Assembly (NCBI RefSeq): GCF_018143015.1
Contig: NC_054746.1
Location: forward strand, 35,992,830 to 36,056,829
Source of the DNA: Lytechinus variegatus
Lineage: Eukaryota > Echinodermata > Echinoidea > Temnopleuroida > Toxopneustidae
DNA: 64,000 nt
Direction of reading: 5' to 3'
This document shows, one piece after another, positions 6,478-28,903 of the stretch (the stretch's first letter is position 1; every line of letters begins with the position of its first letter). The translations under genes and the position numbers were made by a program. The notes under the pieces are model-generated. The model did not search any database. It was not told the DNA's origin and was given only the letters and a program-made list of their open reading frames with translations.

Positions 6478-6825
6478 GAAGTGTCGTGGTGTAGCGGTTC
6501 TGACTCTCGCCTTGCAATCAGAGGGTCGTGTGTTCGAATCCAATCACGGCCTAGCGTCCTTTGACAAGGCGTTAGGCCACACTTTGCCACTCTCCACCCA
6601 TGTGTTATATGGGTACCCCGTAGGATGCGAAAGCCTATGTAATATGCATAGCAAATGATTCTTGGAACTCTTGTTGGAATGCTCCCCTGGGAGTGGAAAA
6701 AGTGCATACATTGTTTGTGGGCATGTCAGGATCCGATGGCCGGGGTAATAATTGCAATGTAAATGGCTTAGAAACAAAATGTAATAAGCGCTATAGAAAT
6801 GTAACCATTATTATCATTTGATGGT
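6478..6825 (+). mobile_element. tRNA-derived SINE
   Basis: The head looks like a tRNA gene: an A-box-like TGGTGTAGCGG near 6488 and a B-box GTGTTCGAATCC at 6530-6541, spaced as in a pol III promoter, closed by 'aatcacggc' pairing with the start. The body runs through 'gcgttaggccacactttgcc' to a 3' tail with 'aataagcgctatagaaatg' followed by ATTATTATC, the type of tail shared with LINEs in many marine invertebrates. It does not fold as an intact tRNA beyond the head. A second tRNA-headed SINE lies on the opposite strand at 63320-63620. Confidence 0.75.
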
Positions 6826-6989: not shown

Positions 6990-7651
6990 CGCCTTGCTGT
7001 AACACCCCTCCCCCTGTTGAACATCACCTTGGCGCCCCCTAGGTCGATCATCCATTCATCACCACTTTCTAGGTCGAACATCAATTTGGCGCCCCCCCCC
7101 CAGGTTGACAATCAATTTTACGCCCCAAGGTCGAACGTTCAATCGGCACCCCCGGCGGCACCCCTATGTCGAACATCAACTCGTCGACCTATGGGCGCCG
7201 AATTCAAGTTCGACGTAGAGGCGTCGAGTCGATGTTCGACACAGGGGGTGCCAAATCAACGTTCAACCTAGGGGTGCTTAGGTGATGTTCAACATGGGGA
7301 GGGGGGGGGTGACAAATAGATGTTCGACATAGGGGCGCAAATTGGGTTCACTCTAGGGGGAGCCGATTTGATGTTAAACCTAGAGGGGCGAAATTGATCC
7401 TTAACCTAGGAGGGGGGGGGGACCAAATTGATGTTTGACCTAGGGGTGCCGAAGGGGGGGGGTGGAATAGGCAATAGGGGCGCAGAATTGATATTAAACT
7501 TAGAGGGGTCGAAATTGATTTTAAATCTAGGGGGGAGGGCACACCGAATTGTTGTTAGACCTAAGGGGGCCAAATTCATGTTCGACGTAAAGAGGCAGAG
7601 TTGATGTTCGACTCGACAAGGGGATGAACGTTCGACCTTGGGGCGTAAAAT
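6990..7651. repeat. Left end of the G-rich minisatellite array, with an orientation switch
   Basis: Monomers of about 26 bp follow 'ttgatgttcgacctagggg' plus 'cgccaaa'. From about 6995 to 7185 they run on the minus strand ('ccctaggtcgatcat', 'cgaacatcaatttggcgcc'); from about 7186 onward they run on the plus strand. The inverted part matches the higher-order segment seen at about 21250-21400. The array is cut at 7651 by the block that ends at 19773 and resumes in register there. Confidence 0.75.
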
Positions 7652-7956
7652 TATGAAAATACTTACCTGATTTTCTAATTTACGAGATAACTCATACATC
7701 TACTTGATTTGCTAGTTCAGCCCTCTGGACTGCCATACCCGAATAGAACTCCCAAGGATTTAAAAAGCGCGAGCGCGCCCTCTCCCGTTCAGGCTTACTA
7801 CCCATGATCACCGCGCAACTAGCGTCCATCTTCCTCACCTTTCGCAAGCCCATACGTTGAAACATGTTGCAACGCAAGGCGGAGGGTCGGTGGGAGGGTA
7901 TCAAGTAGATGTATGAGTTATCTCGTAAATAAGAAAATCAGGTAAGTATTTTCATA
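7652..7956. mobile_element. 305-bp inverted-repeat element at the left end of unit A
   Basis: It opens with TATGAAAATACTTACCTG and closes with the reverse complement, with arms of about 55 bp continuing through 'atttacgagataactc' to 'catctacttg'. The centre includes 'ggatttaaaaagcgcgagcg'. A near-identical copy opens unit B (12854-13161). Its right arm runs directly into the 42-bp terminus at 7955. Each arm contains the nonamer CAGGTAAGT pointing outward. The small frames on both strands are not considered coding. Confidence 0.65.
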
Positions 7957-8422
7957 ATTTACTTCAATAACTCCATACATCTACTTGATTTGCTAGACCA
8001 GCACGGACTCAAACCGTAGGGAGGCATGTTTTCAATTGTAAGCCTAAGAAAATTTAAAAGAAAAAACAAAAACAACGAAATTTAGGGAGAGGGGGAAAAA
8101 CCGCAGCTGCTTTAAGCGCCGAAGCAGCAAATCTCGCCTCGCTGGACGGAATGTCCTTCAAGTAGAAAGAAGTGAAGGAGTTAGTTGAGCGCCAAAAGGC
8201 GGCCCTCAAAAATGTCCTCGAGGGGAATGCCCTGTATACTCAGGAATACTAAGTATCATGGGCCCTCGGCCTAGTGTCAGGAGAACAACATCACCTGCTG
8301 ACTAGAGCGTAAGAATCGAAATTTGTTGAAAATTTCAACAAGAATCGTGATCGGAAAACTGAAGCTTTTAAGGCTCAGTAAGTGATCAATCGACCAATCT
8401 GAGAAGGCGAGATATCTCAGAA

Positions 8423-8660
8423 CCCCTACCGAAATTTAAGCGTGCCGCTTGCTAGTAACTAGCATGCGACTAGCAGGGCACTCGCTTAATAAGCGAGTGC
8501 ATGCTAGCGAACAGTCCCTGCTCGCTAAAAGATCGCTTAACTATTACTCTGCACGCATATCACACGCTTATTAAGCTAACCGCATGCTAGTTACTAGCAT
8601 GTCGCAAGCTTGCGCAAGCTAGTCGCACGCTTCCCGCAAGCTTGGAAATTTCTGTAGGGG
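8423..8660. mobile_element. 238-bp palindrome-rich nested element, copy in unit A
   Basis: Termini are CCCCTACCGAAATTT and the complement of CCCCTACAGAAATTT. The interior is a set of stacked palindromes: ACTCGCTTAATAAGCGAGT, CATGCTAGTTACTAGCATG and GCAAGCTTGC. In addition, 'gctagtaactagcatgcg' on the left pairs with 'cgcatgctagttactagc' on the right, so the element can fold both as one long hairpin and as several local cruciforms. It has no coding capacity. The identical position in unit B shows insertion before the 5.2-kb duplication. Confidence 0.65.
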
Positions 8661-11499
8661 AAGCCTCCGCGTGGGAGAAAGCGCCCAGAATTCGATATCT
8701 GTCTCAAATGCGTGAGGGCAGAAATCTGCAGAATTCTGATAGAGAGCTGTGGTAAAAAGTTACTAGCGGTCCGAAGGGGACCAGGAACGACGGAGAGTAG
8801 GGATTTAGGAAGAAAACCACTCGTAAGGCAGACAAGGGTCGAGAAAGCGACTGAGTGCCATCCTGTTAATAAGGAATGCCGCGGACATGTTGCCTATGTA
8901 GAATAGAGCAGTCTGGTCAAAACAGCTCAACCGGGCGTGTCAGGGATACAGCGCGGTACACATCACGACAAAAGTGTGTTAGACCGAGTGATCGAGAGAG
9001 AACTCAGGATCCCCTTTCTCCCATACTGATTGAAGCACCCATCTGAGGGTGCAGTGCCCGCGGTGGAAGAGGTGGCTTGGCTCAAGCCACCATCGCCGAG
9101 AGAGCCCGTGAGGCTAGGCTGCGATGGCTGTCCGCTGGGCGGGGGAATCCCTAGCAGCAGCAAGTGTACGCCAGAGGGAGCTGGCGAAAAAAAATCTGTC
9201 ACGATATTACGTGTAAACGACCATCAAGAGATGCTCTAAACGAACAGACATCGCCAGATATGATACCTCAACCGTTACATTCCCAACGGAATCGAATGAG
9301 GTAGCAACGGCCCTGTCCTATCAAGTTAGGGACGGAAACTGGCTAAGAGTGTCGAAGTCCTCGCTTGAAGAAACAAGCGAAGGAGACTTGAGGAAGTAAT
9401 CACAAAATTTCCATCAGTCTGCGGTGAGAACCAGTTGTTTATGAAAACAGTCACAAGGCCTGTTTCTCAGGTGATCGTAAGAGCGAGCACCGCCGGCGCC
9501 GGTTGCGGCAGCGTGGAACAGTCCGATATCGGTAAGATAAGGAGCTCCAAAAAGCTGCGGGGGGGGGCGGCAAAAATGACGCCCTAAGCAGCGGGGGATG
9601 AGAATCTAAATTTCTAAAAGAAGAACTCCAGTGAAGTAAATCACTTACATGGAGAGGCTCATCCACAGTCGGCCCGAGAGAAGGCGGGTCGTAGTGATCG
9701 TGGTTAGGAAGGCATAAGCATACATCCATCCACTGTTACATCATCCTCGGTCGAGCGGTGACCCTGGCCACATGCCTTGCATGGAAGGAGGATGAAAGCA
9801 GCATGCAGGGCGACTCGAGTGTGCCGTGAAAAAATTTCTAAGAAAGAAGCCGATTCGACTAACGGGCACGGTAAAGACATCCACCGTAGACCACTCCGCA
9901 CAAGGAGGGAGCGGCGGAGACGCCCGCAAGATTGACCCACATAGAGGGCAGTCTATAAGATAGACAGTTAGAGCTCGACCGATGGTCTGGCGGTGTACAG
10001 TTTGGTGTGAACTCGCCGACCCGGTACGGTGGGTGTGCCCAGAAAGTAGGCATAGAATGCCGACAGAGAATCCTGGGGCTTTAAACAAGTTTGAACGCAC
10101 GTACATAGCCAACAATCTCATGAGATGTACGGCGGTTACTTTCCTCCGAAATGATGTTTACCCAACCGGGAAAGACTCGGGGAACAGCTGTGAATGTCAA
10201 CAGGAGGGATATCTAGCATATGAAAAGCTGATCCCTTCCACGTATTCGGTGCGGGTGCTGCCGGCGGTGTCCGGGGGGACGACCGGTGATGGCAGCTCGG
10301 GCAGGGTTCGTACGAGCCGCCCGAATACGAGACAAATAGGTTAACATAACCATAATGCACCGGGCGGTGGAGGCATAGCGATTATTAAGCACAGGAGAAC
10401 TTTTAATCGCCGTGACATTCAGATCCGATATACATACTCATAAGCTCGGAGAGCTATGAGATAGTGAGACATACCGCTGAGCGGTGATGGTGCTCATATC
10501 AGAGTCGCCCTCTCTTCAGCGGCGATCGCTGGAGAACGGGTGTCTGTACTATAGCCCTGACTCTGGCGTTGCAAGGGTAGGAGCTAAGTAAGACAGGGCA
10601 CCCTTACTTTCGAATAGAAAGTGAGGTTCAGGCCAGAAAAGCGACGGTCCCGTCGCCTGGGCGGACGTGATAGGTTGTCCTCTCAAAGCAGCCAAACATT
10701 CTCACGAGAGAAGTGCGGCATGCGGTATGTAAGAGATTCATACCTCCAATCTACGGGCCCGCTTAGGGGGAAGAATGGAGAGAGTTACCGCTGAAGGAGT
10801 CGTCGCCGTATGTGAGCTTGACGTAGAGGGCGAATTCGGGAGTACCTGCATAATAATCGCCCCCCCCCCTGCCTCTGCCTTCTCGCTAGCCTCGAGAGGC
10901 TTGAAAATTTCGAGACGGCGGCGCCGGAGCCTGGCGCTTCCGGGCAGCAGCAGAGCGGGGGTGGGTTTACACCCACGGAGCTGGCGGCTTCCTCGTCGTA
11001 GGAGCCGGCTCGTCTAGAGCGACCCCGTCACTCTCCGAGACCCCCAATTCGGCCGATTGAGCTCGGAGCGCCTGAAGAGGCGGGGCGAGAAAATATGGAC
11101 TCCCTTGCTTCATCAATACCCCCGCTCGGAGGGTAGATGTGAGGTAGATACTTGTCAAGCAGCGCCTGAGCGCTTACTGAAAAGTCGCCCGCGGGATAGG
11201 GGTTGTCCTCGTAAAGGGAGTCTCGCTCTATGGACTGAACCGGGAGGTTGTCCAGTAAGCGCCGGGGTGGCCCCGCGTGTCGGCTGGGACACGTGCTCTG
11301 AGATCGACGAAAATGCTGGAAAGCACACGCGATCTTGGGGCACCCGGTTAATCGGTGCACTGGCTGGCGATTTAACAGAATCGCTCGAGGATTTCCCGGG
11401 TGTCTGGTGGTTATTGCCCACTTGTCTCGCTTGATGCTCAGGGGCATCAGCGGGGTGAGTAGACGTCGAGGGTGGGGTGAACCCGCACTACTCGAAAGC

Positions 11500-12853
11500 A
11501 GAATGTAGCAGCATGAATAGCTGTGACATCTGACCACCGACACAAGGGTCTGAAGGAGGGACGCCCATGGCAACAGGGCTGGCCGACCTCACCTTCGACC
11601 TCTTCTTCTTCGCGGCCTCCGCCGGTGTGGCCGGGGCAGAAGAAGGCACAAGAGGCACGGGTGATTTCTTACGATTTGCCGCCCCTGGCAGGGCGGCCGT
11701 CAACAACGAAACTTCACCCGAATCTGACGGGGTCAGATTGTGGTCACAGTCTGATGTGTGACGCCTCTCGCGGTAGCAGAATGTAGCAGCATGAATAGCT
11801 GTAACATCTGACCACCGACACAAGGGTCTGAAGGAGGAAACGCCCATGGCAGCAGGGCTGGCCAACCTCTCCTTCGACCTCTTCTTCTTCTTCTCTTTCT
11901 GCGGGCTCCGCCGGCGTGGCCGGGGCAGAAGAAGGCATGAGAGGCACGGGTGATTTCTTACGATTTGCCGCCCCTGGCAGGGCGGCCGCCGACAATGAAA
12001 CTTCACCCGAATCTGACGGGGTCAGATTGTGGTCACAGCCCGATGTGTGACGCCTCTCGCGGTAGCAGAATATAGCAGCATAACATGTATGACTGTAACA
12101 TCTGGCCACCGATAAGAGGGTCTGAAGGAGGAATGCCCATGGCAACAGGGCTGGCCGACCTCTCCTTCGACCTCTTCTTCTTCGCGGCCTCCGCCGGTGT
12201 GGCCGGGGCAGAAGAAGGCACAAGAGGCACGGGTGATTTCTTACGATTTGCCGCCCCTGGCAGGGCGGCCGTCAACAACGAAACTTCACCCGAATCTGAC
12301 GGGGTCAGATTGTGGTCACAGTCTGATGTGTGACGCCTCTCGCGGTAGCAGAATGTAGCAGCATGAATAGCTGTAACATCTGACCACCGACACAAGGGTC
12401 TGAAGGAGGAAACGCCCATGGCAGCAGGGCTGGCCAACCTCTCCTTCGACCTCTTCTTCTTCTTCTCTTTCTGCGGGCTCCGCCGGCGTGGCCGGGGCAG
12501 AAGAAGGCATGAGAGGCACGGGTGATTTCTTACGATTTGCCGCCCCTGGCAGGGCGGCCGCCGACAATGAAACTTCACCCGAATCTGACGGGGTCAGATT
12601 GTGGTCACAGCCCGATGTGTGACGCCTCTCGCGGTAGCAGAATATAGCAGCATAACATGTATGACTGTAACATCTGGCCACCGATAAGAGGGTCTGAAGG
12701 AGGAATGCCCATGGCAACAGGGCTGGCCGACCTCTCCTTCGACCTCTTCTTCTTATTTTGCGGGCTCCGCCGGCGTGGCCGGAGCAGAAGAAGGCACAAG
12801 AGGCACGGGTGATCTCTTACGATTTGCCGCCCCTGGCAGGGCGGCCGCCAACT
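11500..12853. repeat. Dimeric tandem array in unit A, five monomers
   Basis: The anchor 'cgcccatggc' or 'tgcccatggc' occurs at 11567, 11845, 12139, 12418 and 12711. Spacings alternate 278, 294, 279, 293 bp, so the true period is a dimer of 572 bp. Each monomer has a pyrimidine tract (CTTCTTCTT), a 'tgccgcccctggcagggcgg' hairpin-like segment and 'gaatctgacggggtcagatt'. Monomer and dimer lengths are not multiples of three, so the Ser/Pro/Lys-rich minus-strand frames cannot run through the array. Confidence 0.75.
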
Positions 12854-13629
12854 ATGAAAATACTTACCTGATTTTCTTATTTACGAGATAACTCATACAT
12901 CTACTTGATTTGCTAGCTAGTTCAGCCCTCTGGACTGCCATACCCGAATAGAACTCCCAAGGATTTAAAAAGCGCGAGCGCGCCCTCTCCCGTTCAGGCT
13001 TACTACCCATGATCACCGCGCAACTAGCGTCCATCTTCCTCACCTTTCGCAAGCCCATACGTTGAAACATGTTGCTACGCAAGGCGGAGGGTCGGTGGGA
13101 GGGTATCAAGTAGATGTATGAGTTATCTCGTAAATAAGAAAATCAGGTAAGTATTTTCATAATTTACTTCAATAACTCCATACATCTACTTGATTTGCTA
13201 GACCAGCACGGACTCAAACCGTAGGGAGGCATGTTTTCAATTGTAAGCCTAAGAAAATTTTAAAAGAAAAAAACAAAAACAAGAAATTTAGGGAGAGGGG
13301 GAAAAAGCCGCAGCTGCTTTAAGCGCCGAAGCAGCAAATCTCGCCTCGCTGGACGGAATGTCCTTCAAGTAGAAAGAAGTGAAGGAGTTAGTTGAGCGCC
13401 AAAAGGCGGCCCTCAAAAATGTCCTCGAGAGGAATGCCCTGTATACTCAGGAATACTAAGTATCATGGGCCCTCGGCCTAGTGTCAGGAGAACAACATCA
13501 CCTGCTGACTAGAGCGTAAGAATCGAAATTTGTTGAAAATTTCAACAAGAATCGTGATCGGAAAACTGAAGCTTTTAAGGCTCAGTAAGTGATCAAACGA
13601 CCAATCTGAGAAGGCGAGATATCTCAGAA

Positions 13630-13867
13630 CCCCTACCGAAATTTAAGCGTGCCGCTTGCTAGTAACTAGCATGCGACTAGCAGGGCACTCGCTTAATAAG
13701 CGAGTGCATGCTAGCGAACAGTCCCTGCTCGCTAAAAGATCGCTTAACTATTACTCTGCACGCATATCACACGCTTATTAAGCTAACCGCATGCTAGTTA
13801 CTAGCATGCCGCAAGCTTGTGCAAGCTAGTCGCACGCTTCCCGCAAGCTTGGAAATTTCTGTAGGGG
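13630..13867. mobile_element. 238-bp palindrome-rich nested element, copy in unit B
   Basis: Same length and structure as the copy at 8423-8660, offset by exactly 5207 bp. It differs at a few bases, for example 'gcaagcttgtgcaag' here against 'gcaagcttgcgcaag' in unit A, which breaks one small palindrome. Confidence 0.65.
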
Positions 13868-16245
13868 AAGCCTCCGCGTGGGAGAAAGCGCCCAGAATTC
13901 GATATCTGTCTCAAATGCGTGAGGGCAGAAATCTGCAGAATTCTGATAGAGAGCTGTGGTAAAAAGTTACTAGCGGTCCGAAGGGGACCAGGAACGACGG
14001 AGAGTAGGGATTTAGGAAGAAAACCACTCGTAAGGCAGACAAGGGTCGAGAAAGCGACTGAGTGCCATCCTGTTAATAAGGAATGCCGCGGACATGTTGC
14101 CTATGTAGAATAGAGCAGTCTGGTCAAAACAGCTCAACCGGGCGTGTCAGGGATACAGCGCGGTACACATCACGACAAAAGTGTGTTAGACCGAGTGATC
14201 GAGAGAGAACTCAGGATCCCCTTTCTCCCATACTGATTGAAGCACCCATCTGAGGGTGCAGCGCCCGCGGTGGAAGAGGTGGCTTGGCTCAAGCCACCAT
14301 CGCCGAGAGAGCCCGTGAGGCTAGGCTGCGATGGCTGTCCGCTGGGCGGGGGAATCCCTAGCAGCAGCAAGTGTACGCCAGAGGGAGCTGGCGAAAAAAA
14401 ATCTGTCACGATATTACGTGTAAACGACCATCAAGAGATGCTCTAAACGAACAGACATCGCCAGATATGATACCTCAACCGTTACATTCCCAACGGAATC
14501 GAATGAGGTAGCAACGGCCCTGTCCTATCAAGTTAGGGACGGAAACTGGCTAAGAGTGTCGAAGTCCTCGCTTGAAGAAACAAGCGAAGGAGACTTGAGG
14601 AAGTAATCACAAAATTTCCATCAGTCTGCGGTGAGAACCAGTTGTTTATGAAAACAGTCACAAGGCCTGTTTCTCAGGTGATCGTAAGAGCGAGCACCGC
14701 CGGCGCCGGTTGCGGCAGCGTGGAACAGTCCGATATCGGTAAGATAAGGAGCTCCAAAAAGCTGCGGGGGGGGGCGGCAAAAATGACGCCCTAAGCAGCG
14801 GGGGATGAGAATCTAAATTTCTAAAAGAAGAACTCCAGTGAAGTAAATCACTTACATGGAGAGGCTCATCCACAGTCGGCCCGAGAGAAGGCGGGTCGTA
14901 GTGATCGTGGTTAGGAAGGCATAAGCATACATCCATCCACTGTTACATCATCCTCGGTCGTGCGGTGACCCTGGCCACATGCCTTGCATGGAAGGAGGAT
15001 GAAAGCAGCATGCGGGGCGACTCGAGTGTGCCGTGAAAAAATTTCTAAGAAAGAAGCCGATTCGACTAACGGGCACGGTAAAGACATCCACCGTAGACCA
15101 CTCCGCACAAGGAGGGAGCGGCGGAGACGCCCGCAAGATTGACCCACATAGAGGGCAGTCTATAAGATAGACAGTTAGAGCTCGACCGATGGTCTGGCGG
15201 TGTACAGTTTGGTGTGAACTCGCCGACCCGGTACGGTGGGTGTGCCCAGAAAGTAGGCATAGAATGCCGACAGAGAATCCTGGGGCTTTAAACAAGTTTG
15301 AACGCACGTACATAGCCAACAATCTCATGAGATGTACGGCGGTTACTTTCCTCCGAGATGATGTTTACCCAACCGGGAAAGACTCGGGGAACAGCTGTGA
15401 ATGTCAACAGGAGGGATATCTAGCATATGAAAAGCTGATTCCTTCCACGTATTCGGTGCGGGTGCTGCCGGCGGTGTCCGGGGGGACGACCGGTGATGGC
15501 AGCTCGGGCAGGGTTCGTACGAGCCGCCCGAATACGAGACAAATAGGTTAACATAACCATAATGCACCGGGTGGTGAAGGCATAGCGATTATTAAGCACA
15601 GGAGAACTTTTAATCGCCGTGACATTCAGATCCGATATACATACTCATAAGCTCGGAGAGCTATGAGATAGTGAGACATACCGCTGAGCGGTGATGGTGC
15701 TCATATCAGAGTCGCCCTCTCTTCAGCGGCGATCGCTGGAGAACGGGTGTCTGTACTATAGCCCTGACTCTGGCGTTGCAAGGGTAGGAGCTAAGTAAGA
15801 CAGGGCACCCTTACTTTCGAATAGAAAGTGAGGTTCAGGCCAGAAAAGCGACGGTCCCGTCGCCTGGGCGGACGGTCCGCGGACGTGATAGGTTGTCCTC
15901 TCAAAGCAGCCAAACATTCTCACGAGAGAAGTGCGGCATGCGGTATGTAAGAGATTCATACCTCCAATCTACGGGCCCGCTTAGGGGGAAGAATGGAGAG
16001 AGTTACCGCTGAAGGAGTCGTCGCCGTATGTGAGCTTGACGTAGAGGGCGAATTCGGGAGTACCTGCATAATAATCGCCCCCCCCCCTGCCTCTGCCTTC
16101 TCGCTAGCCTCGAGAGGCTTGAAAATTTCGAGACGGCGGCGCCGGGGCCTGGCGCTTCCGGGCAGCAGCAGAGCGGGGGTGGGTTTACACCCACGGAGCT
16201 GGCGGCTTCCTCGTCGTAGGAGCCGCCTCGTCTAGAGCGACCCCG

Positions 16246-16635
16246 TCACTCTCCGAGACCCCCAATTCGGCCGATTGAGCTCGGAGCGCCTGAAGAGGCG
16301 GGGCGAGAAAATATGGACTCCCTTGCTTCATCAATACCCCCGCTCGGAGGGTAGATGTGAGGTAGATACTTGTCAAGCAGCGCCTGAGCGCTTACTGAAA
16401 AGTCGCCCGCGGGATAGGGGTTGTCCTCGTAAAGGGAGTCTCGCTCTATGGACTGAACCGGGAGGTTGTCCAGTAAGCGGGTGGCCCCGCGTGTCGGCTG
16501 GGACACGTGCTCTGAGATCGACGAAAATGCTGGAAAGCACACGCGATCTTGGGGCACCCGGTTAGACGGTGCACTGGCTGGCGATTTAACAGAATCGCTC
16601 GAGGATTTCCCGGGTGTCTGGTGGTTATTGCCCAC
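16246..16635 (-). pseudogene. Gag-like or unknown 129-codon frame, probably a relic
   Basis: In unit B this minus-strand frame is open for 129 codons with a protein-like composition (Ser/Pro-rich start, then an acidic helical stretch containing ALLDKYLPHIYPP). In unit A the same frame is broken, because unit A has 10 extra bases near 11264 that unit B lacks; there the two halves are in different phases. Downstream frames (16185-16376, 16003-16194) are open in other phases, as in a decayed coding region. It is reminiscent of retroelement structural proteins, but no diagnostic motif is visible. It could also be chance opening in GC-rich DNA. Confidence 0.25.
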
Positions 16636-16713
16636 TTGTCTCGCTTGATGCTCAGGGGCATCAGCGGGGTGAGTAGACGTCGAGGGTGGGGTGAACCCGC
16701 ACTACTCGAAAGC

Positions 16714-17575
16714 AGAATGTAGCAGCATGAATAGCTGTGACATCTGACCACCGACACAAGGGTCTGAAGGAGGGACGCCCATGGCAACAGGGCTGGCCGA
16801 CCTCACCTTCGACCTCTTCTTCTTCGCGGCCTCCGCCGGTGTGGCCGGGGCAGAAGAAGGCACAAGAGGCACGGGTGATTTCTTACGATTTGCCGCCCCT
16901 GGCAGGGCGGCCGTCAACAACGAAACTTCACCCGAATCTGACGGGGTCAGATTGTGGTCACAGTCTGATGTGTGACGCCTCTCGCGGTAGCAGAATGTAG
17001 CAGCATGAATAGCTGTAACATCTGACCACCGACACAAGGGTCTGAAGGAGGAACGCCCATGGCAGCAGGGCTGGCCAACCTCTCCTTCGACCTCTTCTTC
17101 TTCTTCTCTTTCTGCGGGCTCCGCCGGCGTGGCCGGGGCAGAAGAAGGCATGAGAGGCACGGGTGATTTCTTACGATTTGCCGCCCCTGGCAGGGCGGCC
17201 GCCGACAATGAAACTTCACCCGAATCTGACGGGGTCAGATTGTGGTCACAGCCCGATGTGTGACGCCTCTCGCGGTAGCAGAATATAGCAGCATAACATG
17301 TATGACTGTAACATCTGGCCACCGATAAGAGGGTCTGAAGGAGGAATGCCCATGGCAACAGGGCTGGCCGACCTCTCCTTCGACCTCTTCTTCTTCTTCT
17401 TATTTTGCGGGCTCCGCCGGCGTGGCCGGAGCAGAAGAAGGCACAAGAGGCACGGGTGATCTCTTACGATTTGCCGCCCCTGGCAGGGCGGCCGCCAGCA
17501 ACGAAACTTCACCCGAATCTGACGGGGTCAGATTGTGGTCACGATCAGATTGTGGTTACAGTCTGTGTGACGCCT
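16714..17575. repeat. Dimeric tandem array in unit B, three monomers
   Basis: The anchors lie at 16781, 17059 and 17352 (278 and 293 bp), the same alternation as in unit A but with one dimer fewer. The last monomer ends in a short repeated 'cagattgtggt' and passes into unique sequence at about 17575. Confidence 0.7.
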
Positions 17576-18004
17576 CTCGCGGTCAGGGGCTGGGCGATCT
17601 CTCCCGATGCTGTCAACGGAGGACGACTTATACGGCAGAGATCCTGACCTGTGCCGGGGGGAGAGAACCGCACTCTCCCTCCGGACTTCTGGTGACCCGG
17701 TAGCCGGTGGGTCGCATAGCCCTATGGGTGCTGCGGCGGCAGGACCTAGTTTAGGCTTGGAAGCCTTGGCTACCACTTTTTCCTTTGTCCGAGACCGTGG
17801 CACCACAGTCTCGGCCTTCCTTCTCTTAGCATCCGACCGCAAATTCGGAATGCTGATCGACGCACCCTCATACTCACCGCCGCTGGGCGCTCACCGCGGC
17901 GTCCCTCCTGCTCGCCTGGAGGCGGCCGACTTCTGTAACTTGCAATCGGGACGGTCCCCGTGGAGGGCACCAGGTCCTCTGGGGCTGTGTTAGTCCCATT
18001 CAAA
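17576..18004 (-). pseudogene. GC-rich segment with overlapping minus-strand frames, unidentified
   Basis: Two overlapping minus-strand frames (17528-17842 and 17770-18003) are rich in Lys/Arg and Pro. They read plausibly as one basic protein with a frameshift near 17800. No domain can be named. The segment lies immediately left of the AT-rich, poly-T-bearing end of the block, where an upstream region of a minus-strand transcript would be expected. Confidence 0.2.
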
Positions 18005-18275
18005 GATACCTCTCTCTACCCTGAAAAAGGAAAAACAAGAATTTTTCTTTTTCTTTTTTTTTTTTTACAAAGATCTCGCTTAGATTAAAAGTGGAGACCG
18101 GAGTGGTCTTTCCCTCCTCCTAAAAGGAGTTTGTTTGAGCAAACAGAACAAAACAAGAGGGGAGGGGTAGGGAGGACGAAGAACCTAAGAATAGTTTAGG
18201 TATCTGCCTGTAAGAAAATAAAAAGGAGGTCGGAGACTTTGAAAAAAGAAACTCCTACAAGGTTCCCCTTCTATA

Positions 18276-18306
<31 letters not shown>

Positions 18307-18726
18307 GCCCGAAGGAAAAATTCGAAACAAAAATTCAAAAATGAATGCAAGTTCAGAAGAGAACGAAGTTTCCACCTGCGAAGAAACACAAAAACAAGCA
18401 TTTCAGAGCAGGAAGAAAAGGGATTGAGAGACAAATAATTCCTAGATAAGAGAAATTTTACGATAATTTCCAAGAGGAAAAAAAAAAAAAGGTAACCTCC
18501 TGTGGAAAGGTAAAGAAATTCAGAACAGGAGGAAGGAGGAACGTCTCTAGTAACGATTCCAAGAGGAAGAACGACACAGTAAATCCTCAAAGGGAATCGT
18601 AGAGCCCGCCTGTCGAAATAAAAAAATATATAAGACTAGGAGGGAAGAGGGAATTGAACGAAGAAAACAATTCCGGGACAGGTCAAAAAAATTTCTAACA
18701 GGAAGGAGACCCCACCTGTAAAGAAC

Positions 18727-18766
<40 letters not shown>

Positions 18767-19611
18767 GGGGGATTGAATAACCAAACAATCATCAGGTATA
18801 ATTGCGTAAGCCGAATTAAACAATCCCCGAAGCGTCTGTGAATAAAATATTAATCAAGAATTTTATTCAGAACAGAAAGGAAAAGGAAATGAGCTTTAGG
18901 ATCCGCCTGTGAATAAAATATCAATCAAGAAATTTATTCAGAACAGAAGGAAAAGGAATTGAGCTTTAAGATCCGCCTGTGAATAAAATATCAATCAAGA
19001 AATTTATTCAGAACAGAAGGAAAAAGGAATTGAGCTTTAAGATCCGCCTGTGAATAAAATATCGATTAAGAAATTTATTCAGAACAGAAAGGAAAGAGAA
19101 TTGAAGAATTAATCAATCAATAATCAATCGAAAATCTTAATAAATCAATTCCAGAAAGCAAGGAAGGAACAGAGTTGAAGATCCCAACCTGCAAATAGAA
19201 ATAACAATAACACCCTCGACAACAAAGTGTAGAGGCTGTCTAGAATTTAATTCAAAAACGGCACCAAAAGCCACCACGCTTTGAACGTGAAGAACAATAA
19301 CCATGACAGGTGGTGAAGGCTTGCTGCCACGTAGGCAGGCCAAGCCCGGTGCCTCGCGAACGCGCTAGCGATGCGGCGCGACGAGAACTCAAACGTTAGA
19401 AAAACAATTTAAGTGTCACCAAAAACACGTCTAAAAAGTCACGCCAAGTGTAAATTCTGAACACAATCTTACACACAAATGGAAAGATTGAAATTAAAAG
19501 GGAGAATGCACCACAGATAAGCGAAAATAATATACCAAAGCTCAAAAAGATTTGAGCTCTTAGGAGACTTATCTGAGCACGTCTTGACAGGTGGCTTGCC
19601 GAAAGCAAAAG
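18005..19611. repeat. AT-rich right part of the block with 70-bp repeats and homopolymer runs
   Basis: Four copies of a 70-71-bp unit ('gcctgtgaataaaatatcaa' onward, including 'ttcagaacagaa') start near 18834, 18905, 18975 and 19046. Looser versions of 'cctgt...ttcagaacagg' extend back to about 18500. Poly-T runs of about 24 and 35 bases lie near 18283 and 18729. No gene is seen. Confidence 0.65.
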
Positions 19612-19773
19612 AGGAAGATGAACGCTAGTTGCGCGGTGATCATGGGTAGTAAGCCTGAACGGGAGAGGGCGCGCTCGCGCTTTTTAAATCCTTGGGAGTT
19701 CTATTCGGGTATGGCAGTCCAGAGGGCTGAACTAGCAAATCAAGTAGATGTATGGAGTTATTGAAGTAAATTA

Positions 19774-22700
19774 GTCAACCTGGGAAGGGGGCGCCAAATT
19801 GATGCTCGACCTAGGAGGGGATGAAGAATGGATGCTCGACCTAGGGGACGCCAAGGTGATGTTCAACAGGGAGGGGCAGGTGGCCGAGTCGATGTTTGAC
19901 ATGGCGGAGAGGGGGATGCTGAATGGACGTTCAACCTAGGGGTGCCGAATCGATGCCCGACTAAGGGGCGCCGAATTGATGTTCAATCTAGAGGGCGTGG
20001 AATAAATGTTTTACCTAGTGCTGCCAAAATTGATGTTCAATCAAGAGGGCGCCGAATTGGTGCCCGACCTAGAACGGGGTACTGAATGGAAGATCAACCT
20101 GGAGCGCCAATGTGATGTTCAACATAGAGGGCGGTACCAAAAAGCTGTTAAACATAGGGGGGCCAAATTGATGTTCAATCTAGGGGGCATCAAATTGATG
20201 GTCGACCAAGAAGGGCGAGCGAATGGATGATCATTCTAGAGGCGCCAAAGTGAAGTTCAAGAGAAGGAGGGGGGGGGGAGGTGTCAAAAAGATGCTGAAC
20301 CTCGGGGCACCATATTGATGTTCAATTTTAGAAGTGCAAAATTCATATTAAACGTAGAGGGGTGAAATTGATGCTAAACTTATTAGGCCGTCGAATGGGA
20401 GGAGTGTCGAATAAACAAAGAAAAGGGGCGCAGAATTGCTGCTAAACCTAGAGTGGTCGAAATTGATGTTAAATTTAGGGGGAGGGCACACCGAATTCTT
20501 GTTAGACATAGGGGGGCCAAATTCAAGATCGACGTAGAGGCGCCGAGTTGATGTTCGACACAGGGGGTGTCGAATGAACGTTCAATCTAGGGGTGCCTAG
20601 GTGATGTTCAACATGGAGAGGGGGAGGACAATAAGATGTTGAACCTAGGGGCACCAATTAATGTTCAATTTTGGAAGCGCCAAATTGTTGTTTAACCTAG
20701 AGGGTTAAAATTGATGCTAGACCTAGGACGTCGAATGGGGGGAGTGTCGAATAGACAAAAGAGAAAAGGGTGTGCAGAACTGATGTTAAACGTAAGAGGG
20801 AGGGAGCACCGAATTTTTGTTTGACCTATGGGCGCCGAATTCAAGTTCGACGTAGAGGTGCCGAGTCGATGTTCGACACAGGGGGTGCCGAATGAACTTT
20901 CAACCTAGGGGTGCCTAGGTGATGTTCAAGATGGGGAGGGGGGGTGACAAACAGCTGTTCAAAATAGGGGCGCCAAATTGATGTTCAATCTAGGGGGAAC
21001 TGATTTGATCTTAAACCTAGAGGGGCGAAATTGATCCTTAACCTAGGAGGCACCAAATTGATGTTTGACCTAGGGGTGCCGACGGGGGAGGAGGGTGGAA
21101 CAGACAATAGAGAAAAGGGGGCGCAGAATTGATGTTAAACTTAGAGGGGTCAAAATTGATTTTAAATCTAGGGGGGAGGGCACACCGAATTGTTGTTAGA
21201 CCTAGGGGGGCCAAATTCATGTTCGACGTAGAGGCGCCGAGTTGATGTTCGACTCGACATAGGGGATGAACGTTCGACCTTGGGGCGTAAAATTGATGGT
21301 CAACCTGGGGAGGGGGTGCCAAATTGATGCTCGACCTAGAAGGGGTGAAGAATGGATGCTCGACCTAGGGGGCGCCAGGGTGATGTTCAACAGGGAGGGG
21401 GGGGGGGGTTGCCGAGTCGATGTTCGACATGGTGGAGAGGGGGATGCTGAATGGAAGTTCAACCTAGGGGTGCCGAATCGATGCTCGACTAAGGGGCGCC
21501 GAATTGATGTTCAATCTAGGGGGCGTGGAATAAATGTTTTACCTAGTGCTGCCGAAATTGATGTTTAATCAAGAGGGCGCCGAATTGGTGCCCGACCTAG
21601 AACGGTACTGAATGGATGATCAACCTAGGGGCGCCAATGTGATGTTAAATATAGAGGGGGTGCCAAACAGCTGTTCAACATAGGGGCCCAAAATTGATGT
21701 TCAATCCAAGGGGCATCGAATTGATGCTGGACCTAGAAGGGCGATACGAAGGGATGATCATTCTAGGGGCGCCAAAGTGAAGTTCAATAGGGGGGGGGGT
21801 CAAAAAGATGTTGAACCTCGGGGCACCAAATTGGATGTTCAATTTTAGAAGTGCAAAATTGATGTTAAACCTAGAGGGTGAAATTGATGCTAAACGTAGG
21901 CCGTCGAATGGGGGGGGGGAATGTCGAATAGACAATAGGGAAAAGGGGGCGCAGTATTGATGTTAAATCTAGAGGGGTCGAAATTGATGTTAAATCTAGG
22001 GGGAGGGCACACCGAATTCTTGTTAGACATAGGGGGGCCAAATTCAAGATCGACGTAGAGGCGCCGAGTTGATGTTCGACACAGGGGGTGTCGAATGAAC
22101 GTTCAATCTAGGGGTGCCTAGGTGATTTTCAAGATGGGGATGGGGGGTGACAAACAGCTGTTCAAAATAGGGGCGCCAAATTGATGTTCAATCTAGGGGG
22201 AACTGATTTGATCTTAAACCTAGAGGGGCGAAATTGATCCTTAACCTAGGAGGAGGCACCAAATTGATGTTTGACCTTGGGGTGCCGAAGGGGGAGTGAG
22301 GTGGAATAGACAATAGAGAAAAGGGGGCGCAGAATTGATGTTAAACTTAAAGGGGTCAAATTTGATTTTAAATCTAGGGGGAAGGCACACCGAATTGTTG
22401 TTAGACCTAGGGGGGCCAAATTCATGTTCGACGTAGAGGCGCCGAGTTGATGTTCGACTCGACATAGGGGATGAACGTTCGACCTTAGGGCGTAAAATTG
22501 ATGGTCAACATGGGGGGGGGGGGCCAAATTGATGCTCGACCTAGAAGGGGGTGAAGAATGGTTGCTCGACCTAGAAGAGGGTGAAGAATGGATGATCATT
22601 CTAGGGGCGCCAAAGTGAAGTTCAATCGAGGGGGCATCGAATTGATGGACCTAGAATGGCGATCCGAATGGATGATCATTCTAGGGGCGCTAAAGTGAAG

Positions 22701-25700
22701 TTCAACAGGGGGGGGGGGTGTCAAAAAGATGTTGAACCTCGGGGCACCAAATTGGATGTTGAATTTTGGAAGCGCAAAATTGATGATAAAAACCTAGAGG
22801 GGTGAAACTCATGCTAAACGTAGGCCATCGAATGGGGGGGGGGGAATGTCGAATAAACAATAGGGAAAAGGGGAGCAGAACTGATGTTAGACCTAGAGGG
22901 GTCGAAATTGAAGATAAATCTAGGGGGAGGGCAAACCGAATTGTTGGTATACATAGGGGGTCAAATTGGGATCAACGTAGAGGCGCCGAGTCGATGTTCG
23001 ACACAGGGGGTGCTGAATAAACGTTCAACCTAGGAGTGCCTAGGTGATGTTCAAGATGGGGAGGGGGGGGGGATGACAAACAGCTGTTTGAAATAAGGGC
23101 GCCAAATTGATGTCCAATCTAGGGGGAGCCGATTTGATGTTAAACAAAGTGGGGTGAAATTGATGCTAGACCTAGGCCGTCGAATGGGGGGAATGTCGAA
23201 TAGACAATAGGGAAAAGGGGGCGCAGAATTGATGTTAAACCTAGAGGGGTCGAAATTGATGTTAAATCTATGGGGGAGGGCACATCGAATTGTTGTTAGA
23301 CATGGGGGGGGGGCAAAGTCAAGAGCGACGTAGAGGCGCTGAGTCGATGTTCGACACAGGGGGTGCCGAATGAACGTTCAATCTAGGGGTGCCTACGTGA
23401 TGTTTATTATGGGGAGGGGGCAGGGGTGTCAATTAGCTGTTGAAGCTAGGGGCACCAATTGATGTTCAAGTTTGGAAGCGCCAAATTGATGTTTAACCTA
23501 GAGGGGTGAAATTGATGCTAGACCTAGGACCTAGAATGGGGGGAGTGTCGAATAGACAACAAAGAAAAGGGGGCGCAGTATTGAGGTTAAACCTAGAGGG
23601 GTCGAAATTGATGCTTAACCGAAGACGGAGGGAGCATCGACAAACAGCTGTTTGAAATAAGGACGCCAAATTGATGTTCAATCTAGGGGGAGCCGATTTG
23701 ATGTTAAACCTAGAGGGGCGAACTTGATCCTTAACCTAGGAGGGGGCGCCAAATTGATGTTCAATCTATGGGGAACCGATTTGATCTTAAATCTAGAGGG
23801 GCGAAATTGATCCTTAACCTAGGAGGAGGCACCAAATTGATGTTTGACCTTGGGGTGCCGAAGGGGGAGTGGGGTGGAATAGACAATAGAGAAAAGGGGG
23901 CGCAGAATTGATGTTAAACTTAAGGGGTCAAATTTGATTTTAAATCTAGGGGGAGGGCACACCGAATTGTTGTTAGACCTAGGGGGGGGGGCCCAATTCA
24001 TGTTCGACGTAGAGGCGCCGAGTTGATGTTCGACTCGACATAGGGGATGAACGTTTGACCTTCTCGACCTAGAAGGGGGTGAAGAATGGTTGCTCGACCT
24101 AGAAGAGGGTGAAGAATGGATGATCATTCTAGGGGCGCCAAAGTGAAGTTCAATCGAGGGGGCATCGAATTGATGATGGACCTAGAATGGCGATCCGAAT
24201 GGATGATCATTCTAGGGGCGCCAAAGTGAAGTTCAACAGGGGGGGGGTCAAAAAGATGTTGAACCTCGGGGCACCAAATTGGATGTTGAATTTTAGAAGC
24301 GCAAAATTGATGTTAAACCTAGAGGGGTGAAACTCATGCTAAACGTAGGCCGTCGAATGGGGGGGAATGTCGAATAGACAATAGGGAAAAGGGGGCGCAG
24401 AACTGATGTTAGACCTAGAGGGGTCGAAATTGATGATAAATCTAGGGGGAGGGCAAACCGAATTGTTGGTATACATAGGGGGTCAAATTGGAGATCAACG
24501 TAGAGGCGCCGAGTCGATGTTCGACACAGGGGGTGCTGAATAAACGTTCAACCTAGGGGTGCCTCGGTGATGTTCAAGATAATGGGGGGGGGGGTGTCAA
24601 ACAGCTGTTCAAAGTAGGGGCGCCAAGGTGATGTTCAACAGGGAGGAGGGGGGGGGGGTTCCCGAGTCGATGTTCGACATGGTGGAAAGAGGGATGCTGA
24701 ATGGACGTTCAACCTAGGGGTGCCAAATCGATGCTCGACTAAGGGGCGCCGAATTGATGTTCAATCTAGGGGGCGTGGAATAAATGTTTTACCTAGTGCT
24801 ACCGAAATTCATGTTCAATCAAGAGGGCGCCGTATTGGTACCCGACCTAGAACGGTACTGAATGGATGATCAACCTAGGGGCGCCAATGTGATGTTCAAT
24901 CAAGGGGAAATCGAATTGATGCTGGACCTAGAAGGGCGATCCGAATGGATGATCATTCTAGGGGCGCCAAAGTGAAGTTGAACAGAGGGGGGGGGGAGGT
25001 GTCAAAAAGATGATGTTGAACCTCGGGGCACCAAATTGATGTTCAATTTTAGAAGCGCTAAATTGATGTTAAACCTAGAGGGGTGAAATTGTTGCTAAAC
25101 GTAGGCCGTCGAATGGGGGGGGGTGTCGAATAGACAATAGAGAAAAGGGGGCGCAGAATTGATGTTAAACCTAGAGGGGTCGAAATTGATGTTAAATATA
25201 GGGGGAGAGCACACCGAATTGTTGTTAGACCTAGGGGTCAAATTCAAGATCGACGTAGAGGCACTGAATCGATTTTCGACACAGGGGGTGCCGATTGAAC
25301 GTTCAATCTAGGGGTGCCTACGTGATGTTCATTATGGGGAGGGGGCGGGGGTGTCAATTAGATGTTGAACCTAGGGGCACCAAATGATGTTCAATTTTGG
25401 AAGCACCAAATTGTTGTTTAACCTAGAGGGGTGAAATTGATGCAAGACCTAGGACGTCGAATGGGGGGGGAGTGTTGGAATAGAGAACAGAAAAGGGGGC
25501 GCAGAATTGATGGTAAACGTAGAGGGGTCGAAACTGATGCTAAACCTAAGAAGGAGGGAACATCGAATTTTTGTTTGACCTATGGGCGCCGAATTCAAGT
25601 TCGACGTAGAGGCGCCGAGTCGATGTTCGACACAGGGGGTGCCGAATGAACGTTCAACCTAGGGGTGCCAAGGTAATATTCAAGAGAAGGAGGATTGGGG

Positions 25701-26318
25701 TGACAAACAGCTGTTCAATATAGGGCCAACAAATTGATGTTCAAGTTAGGGGGAGCCGATTTGATGTTAAACCTAGAGGGGTCGAAATTGATGTTAAATA
25801 TAGGGGGAGAGCACACCGAATTGTTGTTAGACCTAGGGGGTCAAATTGAAGATTGACGTACAGGCACTGAGTCGATGTTCGACACAGGGGGTGTCGATTG
25901 AACGTTCAATCTAGGGGTGCCTACGTGATGTTCATTATGGGGAGGGGGCGGGGGTGTCAATAAGATGTTGAACCTAGGGGCACCAATAGATATTCAATTT
26001 TGGAAGCGCCAAATTGATGTTTAACCTAGAGGGTGAAATTGATGCTAGACCTAGGATGTCGAATGGGGGGGGGGGAGTGTCGAAAAGGCAATAGAAAAAT
26101 GGGGGCTCAAAATTGATGTTAAGCCTAGAGGGGTCGAAATTGATGTTAAATCTAGTTGGAGGGCATACCGAACTGCTGCAAGACCTAGAGGGCCAAATTC
26201 AAGATCGACGTAGAGGCGCCGGTCAATGTTAGACACAGGGGGTGCCGAATGAACGTTCAATCTAGGGTTGCCTTCGTGATGTTAGACATGGGGAGGGGGA
26301 GGTCAATAAGATGTTGAA
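19774..26318 (+). repeat. Minisatellite array, main segment, with higher-order repeats
   Basis: About 6.5 kb of ~26-bp monomers 'ttgatgttcaacctagggg' + 'cgccaaa'. Runs of G vary in length at the same place in every unit. Longer blocks recur in the same order every roughly 0.3-1.2 kb: a 'gtcgaatagacaatag' spacer, a 'gagggcacaccgaattgttg' unit, a 'gacgtagaggcgccgag' unit and an 'acacagggggtgccgaatga' unit (near 20563, 20875, 22080, 23003, 23357, 25273, 25632 and 26236). The Pro/Leu/Arg repeats read on the minus strand are a by-product of the monomer, not genes. The array is interrupted at 26319 by the LINE and resumes at 33264. Confidence 0.85.
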
Positions 26319-26404
26319 GGTAATGTTCGTAATGTTCGCCGAGGAGTGACGTGTTTTCGAGAGCTCTCGTTTTTGCATGCTAAGTACGTAATAGAAAGCT
26401 AACC

Positions 26405-27373
26405 ATGCCTATCAATCTTCGTAGCGGAACGTCAACTGGGCCCTCCGGGGCAGCACCCCGTCAACAGTCAGCTTCCGAGGTACAACCAAATCCCCCACCT
26501 TCCGACTTTGAAAACTTTGTTAGAAAAGGGATTTCTGACATTCGGTCAATGCTTTCTAGTTTTGAGGAGTCTCTAGCTTTTCAGGATGCTCGCACAACGG
26601 AATTGGAGAAGAAGGTTTCTCCTCTCGAGAAAAAAGTGAAGGATTTAGAATCACGCATTTCGACCCATGAATCCCGTCTTGAAATGGAAGAGCTAGCCGA
26701 AAACAAGTTGCAGCGTTTCTCAAGGAGAAATAACTTTAGAATCGTTGGAGTACCATTTCATCCCAATGAGAACCCCATGGAAGTTGTAAGTCATTTTCTT
26801 ACTGAGTACTTTGATATGGAACACCCACAGATAGAACGAGCCCATCGGGACGGCCCTCAAGTGAAGAACCTGCCACGTCATCTACTGGTAAAAATGTTGT
26901 CGTATCAGGACAAGAGGTACATTGTTTCGCAGCAGAGAAAAAAGCTAGAAAGGGAAAGAATGTATATCATCGATGATCTAACGAAAAGAGATAGAGAAGA
27001 GAAGAAGAAATGGATGAAGGAAGTAAACGCGGCTTTCCGTTCGGGAACACGTTATCATTTCTCTGCCGGAAAATGGCGGCAAGGGCGTGGCAACTTAGCA
27101 CCATTCTACGCAGCCAAGACCAGCGCCGCAGCTGACTCGCCTACACAGAACGTCTCGCGGGGAACCCAGGCAAGGCACGATACTTCCGGGATGGAACCAG
27201 CGCTCATTGATTCTTCTCCCATTGGGCACACCCGCGCTACACCCCCTGCCACACCCCCTTCCACGCCTTCTACCCGTGTTCAGTATGACGCAGAAGGTCC
27301 TCCTCATATTGATCGTATTGTCACAGCGCAAGTGCATCGTGATCCCGACGACGATGATTTGGTTATTCCTTGA
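26405..27373 (+). CDS. LINE ORF1 protein (coiled coil plus RRM-like nucleic-acid-binding domain)
   Basis: The frame encodes 322 residues and is intact. Residues about 1-35 are disordered. Residues about 45-115 form a heptad-rich coiled coil (ELEKKVSPLEKKVKDLE), expected to trimerise. Residues about 118-210 match the L1 ORF1 core: RRNNFRIVGVPF, then IERAHR, HLLVKMLSYQDKRYIV and IIDDLTK. The C-terminal tail is Pro/Thr-rich and acidic. In characterised LINEs this protein coats the element RNA and acts as a chaperone; here that is inferred from the family. The ATG sits 86 bp from the element's 5' end. Confidence 0.85.
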   Translation: MPINLRSGTSTGPSGAAPRQQSASEVQPNPPPSDFENFVRKGISDIRSMLSSFEESLAFQDARTTELEKKVSPLEKKVKDLESRISTHESRLEMEELAENKLQRFSRRNNFRIVGVPFHPNENPMEVVSHFLTEYFDMEHPQIERAHRDGPQVKNLPRHLLVKMLSYQDKRYIVSQQRKKLERERMYIIDDLTKRDREEKKKWMKEVNAAFRSGTRYHFSAGKWRQGRGNLAPFYAAKTSAAADSPTQNVSRGTQARHDTSGMEPALIDSSPIGHTRATPPATPPSTPSTRVQYDAEGPPHIDRIVTAQVHRDPDDDDLVIP

Positions 27374-27739
27374 TCTGATTGGCATGGAATTATTTTGAAT
27401 AACGAATTGCAAAAGGTAAAAAAAAACGATATTTATTCTATTTATGTTTAGCGAAAACACAGTTTTACTGCAACAGAGTTCTTGTTCGCGATACTGAGTC
27501 TTTCGGTGGAATGTTACAGAAGTTACTTTCACTCATTCACGGAAAAAGAACCGATATTGAAGCAACGATACAAGTTGATCTTTGGAACATTTGTGTACAT
27601 AGACACTTTAATTCATTTTCATGTTATGATGGACAAAACATTCTAATTCAAGCTATTAATAGTACAATTGAAACGAACCCATTTGTAATTTCATGTAAAC
27701 ACGCTGTAGGTTCACTATTAGGTACTATTAATAAATACT

Positions 27740-28903
27740 ATGACTGAGACAGGAATTTATTCTATGAATGCCCGTGGTCTAGGAGACCGATTTAAACGGA
27801 TACAGGTGTTATCCTGGTTACGCAGTAAAAATGCGAGTATTTTCTTTTTACAAGAAACCCACTCTACCATTGCTAATGAAAAAAGTTGGGTAGAGGATTG
27901 GGGAGTGGGTTCAGTTTTCTTTTCGCATGGAACCTCCAATAGTCGAGGAGTATGTATTCTTTTGAAAAACGTTTTAGATATTACTGTTAATAAAGAATAT
28001 CACGATGAGTTTGGTCGTTTTGTAATATTAGATACCATTTTAAATCAACAAAAAATCACACTGATAAATGTGTATGGTCCTAACGACGATAATCATACAT
28101 TTTTTGATGAAATACTTCATAAGTTACAAGAATTTGATTGTGAATCTGTTCTTTGGGGTGGGGATTTTAATCTGGTTTTGGATGTAAACAAAGACAAAAA
28201 AGGTGGCCGCCAAACCACACATTTGCACTCTTTAAATTCAATTGATATAATAATGGATGAATATAATTTAGTAGATATTTGGCGCTTTCATAATGTTGAT
28301 ATCCAGAAGTTTACTTGGAATTCAAGAAATGTATTCTGTCGCTTGGACTTTTTCTTAGTTTCGCACAACTTGATTACACAAATTGATAATTGTGATATCC
28401 TACCTGGTTTCAAAACCGACCATTCGGCGATATTTTGTAATTTACATTTTTTAAATAAAACTAGGGGGAGAGGTTTTTGGAAATATAATACTTCATTATT
28501 ACAAGATGAAACATACACGGAATTGGTTCGTGATTGTATAAAAGAAAACAAGAATATGTTTTTGAATAATTTAGATCCTAATACGTTCTGGGATTTTCTT
28601 AAATGTCAAATTAGATCATTAACGATTGGCTATTCAATAGAGAAAGCCAGGCAAGGTAGAGCTCGAGAAAAAAATATTATAGCTAGACTCAAATTCCTTG
28701 AGTCCAGTTATTCCCAGAATCAATCTGAAGTGATTAAAAATGAGATAATATCTTGTAAAGAGGATCTTGAGATGTTATATGAGAGAAAGACAGCAGGTGC
28801 AATTATAAGAGCAAGAGCTAATTGGATCGAAAATGGTGAAAGAAACACACGTTATTTTACAAATCTTGAAAAAAAGGAATCAACGACAGAATGTTATAAC
28901 TAA
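27740..28903 (+). CDS. LINE ORF2, N-terminal part: AP-like endonuclease
   Basis: The frame starts at the first ATG after ORF1 and encodes an apurinic-type endonuclease of the LINE family. Motifs in order are YSMNARGL, FLQETH (catalytic Glu, about residue 40), INVYGPN, WGGDFN (about 141), RLDFFLVS and TDHSAI (catalytic His, about 234). This enzyme nicks target DNA to prime reverse transcription. The frame runs out at 28903 because of a +1 shift at a run of seven A (28869-28875); the reverse transcriptase continues in the next frame, overlapping by 71 bases. All endonuclease motifs are intact, so only the shift disables the protein. Confidence 0.85.
   Translation: MTETGIYSMNARGLGDRFKRIQVLSWLRSKNASIFFLQETHSTIANEKSWVEDWGVGSVFFSHGTSNSRGVCILLKNVLDITVNKEYHDEFGRFVILDTILNQQKITLINVYGPNDDNHTFFDEILHKLQEFDCESVLWGGDFNLVLDVNKDKKGGRQTTHLHSLNSIDIIMDEYNLVDIWRFHNVDIQKFTWNSRNVFCRLDFFLVSHNLITQIDNCDILPGFKTDHSAIFCNLHFLNKTRGRGFWKYNTSLLQDETYTELVRDCIKENKNMFLNNLDPNTFWDFLKCQIRSLTIGYSIEKARQGRAREKNIIARLKFLESSYSQNQSEVIKNEIISCKEDLEMLYERKTAGAIIRARANWIENGERNTRYFTNLEKKESTTECYN

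Follow-up and report, generated by a model that had tools for sequence, protein, structure and literature searches.

A composite block in the Lytechinus variegatus genome interpreted as two copies of a large non-autonomous DIRS1-like retrotransposon

Ends of the element and the internal complementary region

What kind of mobile element carries long inverted repeats and a large body, but no intact gene for its own movement? This question is raised by a GC-rich block at 7652-19773 of the window, the 64-kb stretch of Lytechinus variegatus DNA to whose positions all coordinates refer unless a contig is given. The sequence-only reading of this stretch rightly described a mobile insertion with inverted repeats and without intact transposase, recombinase or reverse transcriptase (RT), while its view that the class is not obvious and the family perhaps undescribed can be abandoned. 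The class is identifiable because of the structure of an internal complementary region (ICR), remnants of tyrosine recombinase (YR) and gag sequences, and a coding relative, L074. We interpret the elements of the block, with little doubt, as a large non-autonomous DIRS1-like (YR) retrotransposon, which would be moved by the enzymes of its sister element through RNA and a circle. The DIRS1-like assignment, as judged from sequence, is held with high confidence and considered settled.

Searches covered a genome of 870 Mb in 33 contigs, from which 20 copies were fetched out of 40 full-length places, as the best matches to the window. A 20-mer of the repeat core gave 1002 matches (with at most 1 mismatch) and its reversed-pattern control gave 0, ruling out a chance origin. 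The block comprises two units of one family, 7652-12852 and 12853-19771. The coding strand is minus, with the 5' end at 19771 and the 3' end at 12853. Units and end structures are as follows.

7652-12852, minus strand: unit 1, a truncated copy running from the 3' terminus to inside the gag array, of the L009-L014 subfamily (BLAST and diagnostic sites)
12853-19771, minus strand: unit 2, a full-length non-autonomous DIRS1-like element of 6.9 kb, of the majority subfamily (full-length alignment with the 20 fetched copies, some with indels)
7652-7708, no strand assigned: DIRS 3' terminus of unit 1, of which about 57 nt recur in inverted form in the ICR (inverted repeat arms)
12853-12909, no strand assigned: DIRS 3' terminus of unit 2, of which about 57 nt recur in inverted form in the ICR (inverted repeat arms)
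7900-7996, no strand assigned: ICR of unit 1, the reverse complement of the joined 5' and 3' ends (inverted repeats, and exact words at 7933, 7955 and 7957)
13105-13201, no strand assigned: ICR of unit 2, 97 of 97 nt exact (comparison with the joined ends)
12853-13041, minus strand: 3' inverted terminal repeat (ITR; inverted repeat arms)
19611-19771, minus strand: 5' ITR and 5' end, the plus strand of which ends in GAAGTAAAT (inverted repeat arms and copy alignment)

The true left end, TATGAAAATACTTACC, is found at 7652 and again at 12853, and the last position of the block is 19771. The left end word TATGAAAATACTTACCTGATTTTC occupies the same two positions, with its reverse complement at 7933 and 13138. 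The 42-bp perfect inverted ends noticed earlier do exist as an exact 42-mer, at 7955 and 13160 on the plus strand and at 19732 on the minus strand, but because of the first two positions its left arms are internal, forming one half of the ICR and not the left end of the block. The ITRs span 144 nt at 99% identity (7693-7836 against 19611-19754), and 126 nt at 99% within unit 2.

Joining the two ends of a copy, as a circle would, and taking the reverse complement yields a sequence that recurs within that copy at 249-345 (253-349 for unit 2 and 460-556 for L026, measured there from the end of the outer copy). All 97 nt of it agree in 19 of 21 copies, the other two being L019 (94/97) and L020 (96/97). 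The longest exact match of the joined ends is 97 nt; in 20 shuffles of the body it never exceeded 10 nt. An ICR complementary to both ends is a DIRS1-type feature in the relevant passages of four sources (PMC8969392, PMC9210276, PMC5633606, PMC2685390). PAT and Ngaro elements, by comparison, have split direct repeats in the order A1-B1-A2-B2, while terminal and internal repeats of the window element are both inverted and hence do not form this pattern. The same ITR and ICR layout is present in an independent DIRS1-like element, L029, which served as a positive control. In L037 (C1:47057400-47058700) the 305-bp segment between the 3' terminus and the ICR appears to be inverted, as if flipped across the 57-nt inverted repeats.

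The coding sister element and internal anatomy

The same genome contains a relative in which these termini enclose protein genes, something suggested earlier as worth looking for. This element, L074 (C1:46211250-46218250), is 6869 bp long and shares the ends of the window element. Its ICR matches 97/97 and lies at the same position, its ITRs measure 151 nt (98.7% identity), and the sequence flanking it on the left is TAAAT. Its frames encode a gag of 646 aa that matches nothing in Pfam, an RT (RVT_1, E 3e-22), a Dam-like methyltransferase (MT) and a YR. Identity between L074 and the window element is 95.6% in the first 589 nt of the latter, 80-94% in blocks of gag and 85% in the leader. Termini and ICR are thus shared with an encoding family in the same genome, as in a non-autonomous DIRS1-like derivative. 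The interior of the window element is presented below.

13291-13557, minus strand: broken remnant of the YR C terminus, immediately upstream of the ICR (57% identity to aa 430-517 of the L074 YR, E 2e-16)
13442-16077, no strand assigned: about 2.5-2.6 kb of unrelated sequence replacing RT, RNase H (RH), MT and the larger part of YR (L074 does not align here at the DNA level)
16113-18003, minus strand: decayed, frameshifted gag (tblastn with L074 gag, best E 5e-86)
16711-17542, minus strand: array of 2.9 copies of a gag segment of about 293 bp, unit 2 (repeat scan and L074 comparison)
11497-12859: array of 4.8 copies of a 289-bp gag segment, unit 1 (repeat scan and L074 comparison)
18450-19610, minus strand: AT-rich 5' leader (within the alignment 85% identical to L074)
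18836-19104: 71-bp repeats in the 5' leader (repeat scan)
18731-18764: poly-T run in the 5' leader (repeat scan)

The layered structure reported earlier is now read as DIRS anatomy. The 305-bp element extends from the 3' terminus to the ICR and, together with the 42-bp end, contains the latter; the dimeric array consists of tandem copies of a gag segment, and the AT-rich tail is the 5' leader. In tblastn with L074 proteins, gag and YR match on the minus strand in several pieces and frames, in the order of DIRS elements, and the RT and MT proteins give no match to the window element at E 0.01. A further result agrees on the remnant: the YR of another DIRS1-like element, L031, matches its site with 35.8 bits, the best of 400 resampled sequences reaching 28.1 (281 of them with any listed match). 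From the autonomous DIRS1 coding set (gag, RT/RH, MT, YR), only broken pieces of gag and YR are present, the frames being in L074, and the element is for this reason classed as a non-autonomous derivative and not as an autonomous member.

At the DNA level the match to L074 breaks off at 13441, but YR protein similarity continues to 13557, leaving about 2.5 kb as truly foreign. Within the replaced segment, the 13 scanned stop-free frames (of 19, at least 55 aa long) contain no Pfam domain, nor did Pfam detect a transposon domain in 20 stop-free frames, 10 from unit 2 and a further 10 from the insert. Two sub-threshold matches, FBP_C (17.6 bits) and FtsA_C (11.1 bits), fall in one and the same frame. 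The Rfam search of the window at gathering scores gave 0 matches.

The search for a coding partner included the YR loci L029, L030 and L031 and 36 short pieces downstream of other YR matches (L038-L073). L031 was found through Pfam PF00589, and a search with its YR led, among other groups, to the YR group of L074, three contig-1 places of which adjoin repeat cores among the matches listed. Compared by tblastn with the window element, the proteins of L029 and L030 and the gag and RT of L031 gave nothing beyond resampled sequences. The first 20 of the short pieces show short weak matches only, and in the last 16 the exact core GAAGTAAATTATG of the window element is present in 0 and GAAGTAGATTATG in three. 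The latter, a related sequence, is the circle core of a separate DIRS1 clade, composed of L031 and eight relatives (L038-L042, L044, L053 and L056), which have the same layout next to YR as the window element. Flanks of this clade read ATY after CATA in 7 of 9 cases, mirroring the RAT-like flank of the window family. The L031-clade motif AGGTAAGTAT also resembles that of the window element. An introner reading, raised by the splice-donor-like CAGGTAAGT in the termini, was dropped on sequence grounds, with splicing untested, since CAGGTAAGT is part of the circle-junction repeat and a related motif occurs in the L031 clade.

Copies were counted, as the sequence-only reading had proposed, by a marker in the insert, which occurs 309 times in the genome (control 0); the YR marker of the sister occurs 21 times (control 0). 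By arithmetic, 309 copies of about 6.9 kb would occupy some 2.1 Mb (0.25%) of the genome. The 20 fetched copies and unit 2 differ from one another by 0-0.9% in substitutions, with indels left out, an estimate biased low because the fetched copies are the best matches to the window. Judged by these values the window family appears very young. Six places with oddly spaced cores among the first 100 repeat-core matches listed, L032-L037, do not all belong to this family, as L035 is an end of the sister beside a window-type copy; L032-L034 and L036 match at 93-97%. A 1.2-kb piece of another copy, L075 (C1:26858100-26859300), carries gag and part of RT (70% aa) followed by sequence of the insert, which shows that there are chimeric or intermediate forms.

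Insertion sites, mechanism and the composite block

Two features of the surrounding minisatellite describe the insertion site.

7647-7651, no strand assigned: target core AAAAT at the left junction, resembling TAAAT of the element (flank comparison)
21236-21355, plus strand: paralogous uninterrupted ("empty") target unit in the minisatellite (alignment of the joined flanks, 120 nt)

The joined flanks of the block align with this empty unit, in agreement with the earlier description of an insertion inside a minisatellite that resumes on the other side. Two blocks, 19778-27000 and 33545-36251, look like a single minisatellite with 26-27 bp units and higher-order periods of about 350 bp.

The right end is exactly TAAAT in 19 of 21 copies; in L019 and L020 an apparent copy of the target core stands in its place. 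Alignment of flanks, proposed earlier for finding target duplications, revealed none of fixed length in the 21 copies, as is usual for DIRS1. Beyond TAAAT, a direct repeat of the left flank, at least 3 nt long, was observed in only three copies (3, 3 and 10 nt), and mismatched pairs of left and right flanks give similar lengths. The left 5-mer resembles TAAAT far more than its surroundings do, with 35 mismatches in 105 positions over 21 copies against a null mean of 71 and minimum of 52 (20000 resamplings from the same flanks, 0 as good). A circle that recombines site-specifically with a similar core would be expected to leave junctions of this pattern.

A mechanism can be proposed on this basis. 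Minus-strand RNA of the element would be copied by the RT of the sister autonomous family, of which L074 is an example copy; the ICR would template joining of the ends into a circle, and the YR of the sister would insert this circle at short cores resembling TAAAT|TATG, with no fixed target-site duplication. Having lost most genes, and very probably moving with the enzymes of the sister, the window family represents a known kind of retrotransposon in a poorly documented form, and not an unknown family.

Other classes have been weighed against this interpretation. The 144-nt inverted subterminal repeats could suggest a terminal inverted repeat DNA transposon moved by a DDE transposase, in the manner of a giant miniature inverted-repeat element. 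We consider this extremely improbable, because the outer ends differ (TATGAAAA vs ATTTACTTC), a target duplication of fixed length is absent, and the element has an ICR, gag and YR remnants and an RT-encoding sister. Equally improbable is a Crypton-like YR DNA transposon integrating as a circle without RT, an enzyme that, to our knowledge, Cryptons lack. It would explain the short core-like repeats and the YR remnant, but not the ITRs, the ICR and a sister encoding RT and gag, which are DIRS features. Animal Cryptons are, moreover, described as lacking terminal repeats in the pertinent part of PMC3212892.

Several observations weigh against the DIRS1-like interpretation. In L074 the Dam-like MT scores 19.1 bits against a Pfam cut-off of 28.1 (E 0.001), YR (PF00589) 16.2 bits against 27.1 (E 0.009), and RNase H was not detected by Pfam. 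The YR assignment is made because the L074 group is 54-58% identical to the YR of L031, which passes the cut-off. The 10-nt flank match belongs to L017, which sits in a TA repeat, and short direct repeats are visible by eye at the junctions of L019 (TCACAAA) and L020 (TCAAT); we read the latter two as target-derived cores replacing that of the element. The joined flanks have 3 nt fewer at the junction than the empty unit, a difference that cannot be read as a deletion because the empty site is a paralogous unit. Finally, transcript, circle and trans-mobilisation are steps that we infer.

The 12-kb form of the block requires its own explanation. Among the other fetched copies, 18 of 20 are single elements of 6.5-7.0 kb, making the block exceptional among these. 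The exceptions are L009, 8.5 kb long with a foreign insertion inside, and L026 (C1:81343930-81353929), in which a 6.9-kb inner element is nested in the 3' region of another copy. The insertion in L009 (C13:27367400-27377399) has long inverted ends beginning, by eye, with GCGCGTTTCC, and is probably a DNA transposon. Nesting in L026 occurred at GAAA|CATG without duplication and is reminiscent of DIRS-1 self-insertion, reportedly described by Cappello in 1984.

A recent internal duplication of 5.2 kb had been proposed for the window block. Two nearly identical units are indeed present (98.7% over 4.7 kb), but diagnostic sites place them in different subfamilies. Of 3811 sites compared outside the gag array, 19 distinguish the two units, whereas only 7-13 separate unit 1 from the copies L009-L014. 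At 7 of the 19, the state of unit 1 is common to 5-6 of the 20 copies and that of unit 2 to 14. By these sites, the units derive from two subfamilies and not from a recent duplication. In the simplest reading, a full copy would have inserted into an older copy of another subfamily, and one of the two similar tails would later have been lost by recombination between direct repeats. The main competing explanation, template switching between two co-packaged RNAs, is a distinct but lesser possibility; it likewise accounts for two subfamilies and is in line with the chimeric L075, while the junction exactly at a full 3' terminus and a target-like core is what nested insertion predicts. An assembly artefact joining two loci is improbable. 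Near-identical repeats of such kind can be mis-joined, but both flanks come from one minisatellite and jointly align to an uninterrupted unit, the inner junction CCAAC|TATG looks like any ordinary site of insertion, and L026 is another case of nesting within the family.

Two further features were noted in the window. A non-LTR (long terminal repeat) retrotransposon at 26384-31463, plus strand, contains endonuclease (PF03372) and RT (PF00078) frames and an upstream frame without a Pfam match. A segment at 6480-6800 resembles a tRNA-derived short interspersed element.

Relation to known elements and significance

In large retrotransposon derivatives and Dasheng-type non-autonomous LTR elements, a large non-coding body is mobilised by a partner with the same ends. 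These have LTRs and integrase, in contrast to the ITR, ICR and YR of the window element. DIRS1-like retrotransposons, as far as they are characterized in the sections concerned of PMC8969392, PMC9210276 and PMC2685390, are alike in ITRs, an ICR to both ends, absence of a fixed target duplication, and the gag, RT, MT and YR frames seen in L074; the window element differs in having no intact gene and an unrelated 2.5-kb segment instead of pol. SIRE of Trypanosoma cruzi, a truncated relative of VIPER and, among the sources consulted, the nearest described non-autonomous YR element, is also a non-autonomous derivative of a YR retrotransposon, but according to the account consulted it is about 0.4 kb long and its parent has split direct repeats (PMC6681497), compared with 6.9 kb, ITR and ICR here. 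Non-autonomous Cryptons similarly outnumber their YR-encoding partner, although the same passages describe animal ones as devoid of terminal repeats (PMC3212892). A phrase match in the open-access literature, which is a narrow test, found no paper on non-autonomous DIRS, and such elements with ITR and ICR seem to be little described.

The 2.5-kb non-DIRS segment might have been captured and might benefit the parasite, for instance in RNA packaging or escape from silencing. We regard this as rather unlikely; if true, it would explain the roughly 15:1 excess over the coding sister at a retained full length. As a young pair with shared ends (21 vs 309 markers), the two families provide a natural system for studying the cis requirements of YR retrotransposons, and their many fresh junctions directly expose the recombinase core (TAAAT|TATG) and the choice of target.

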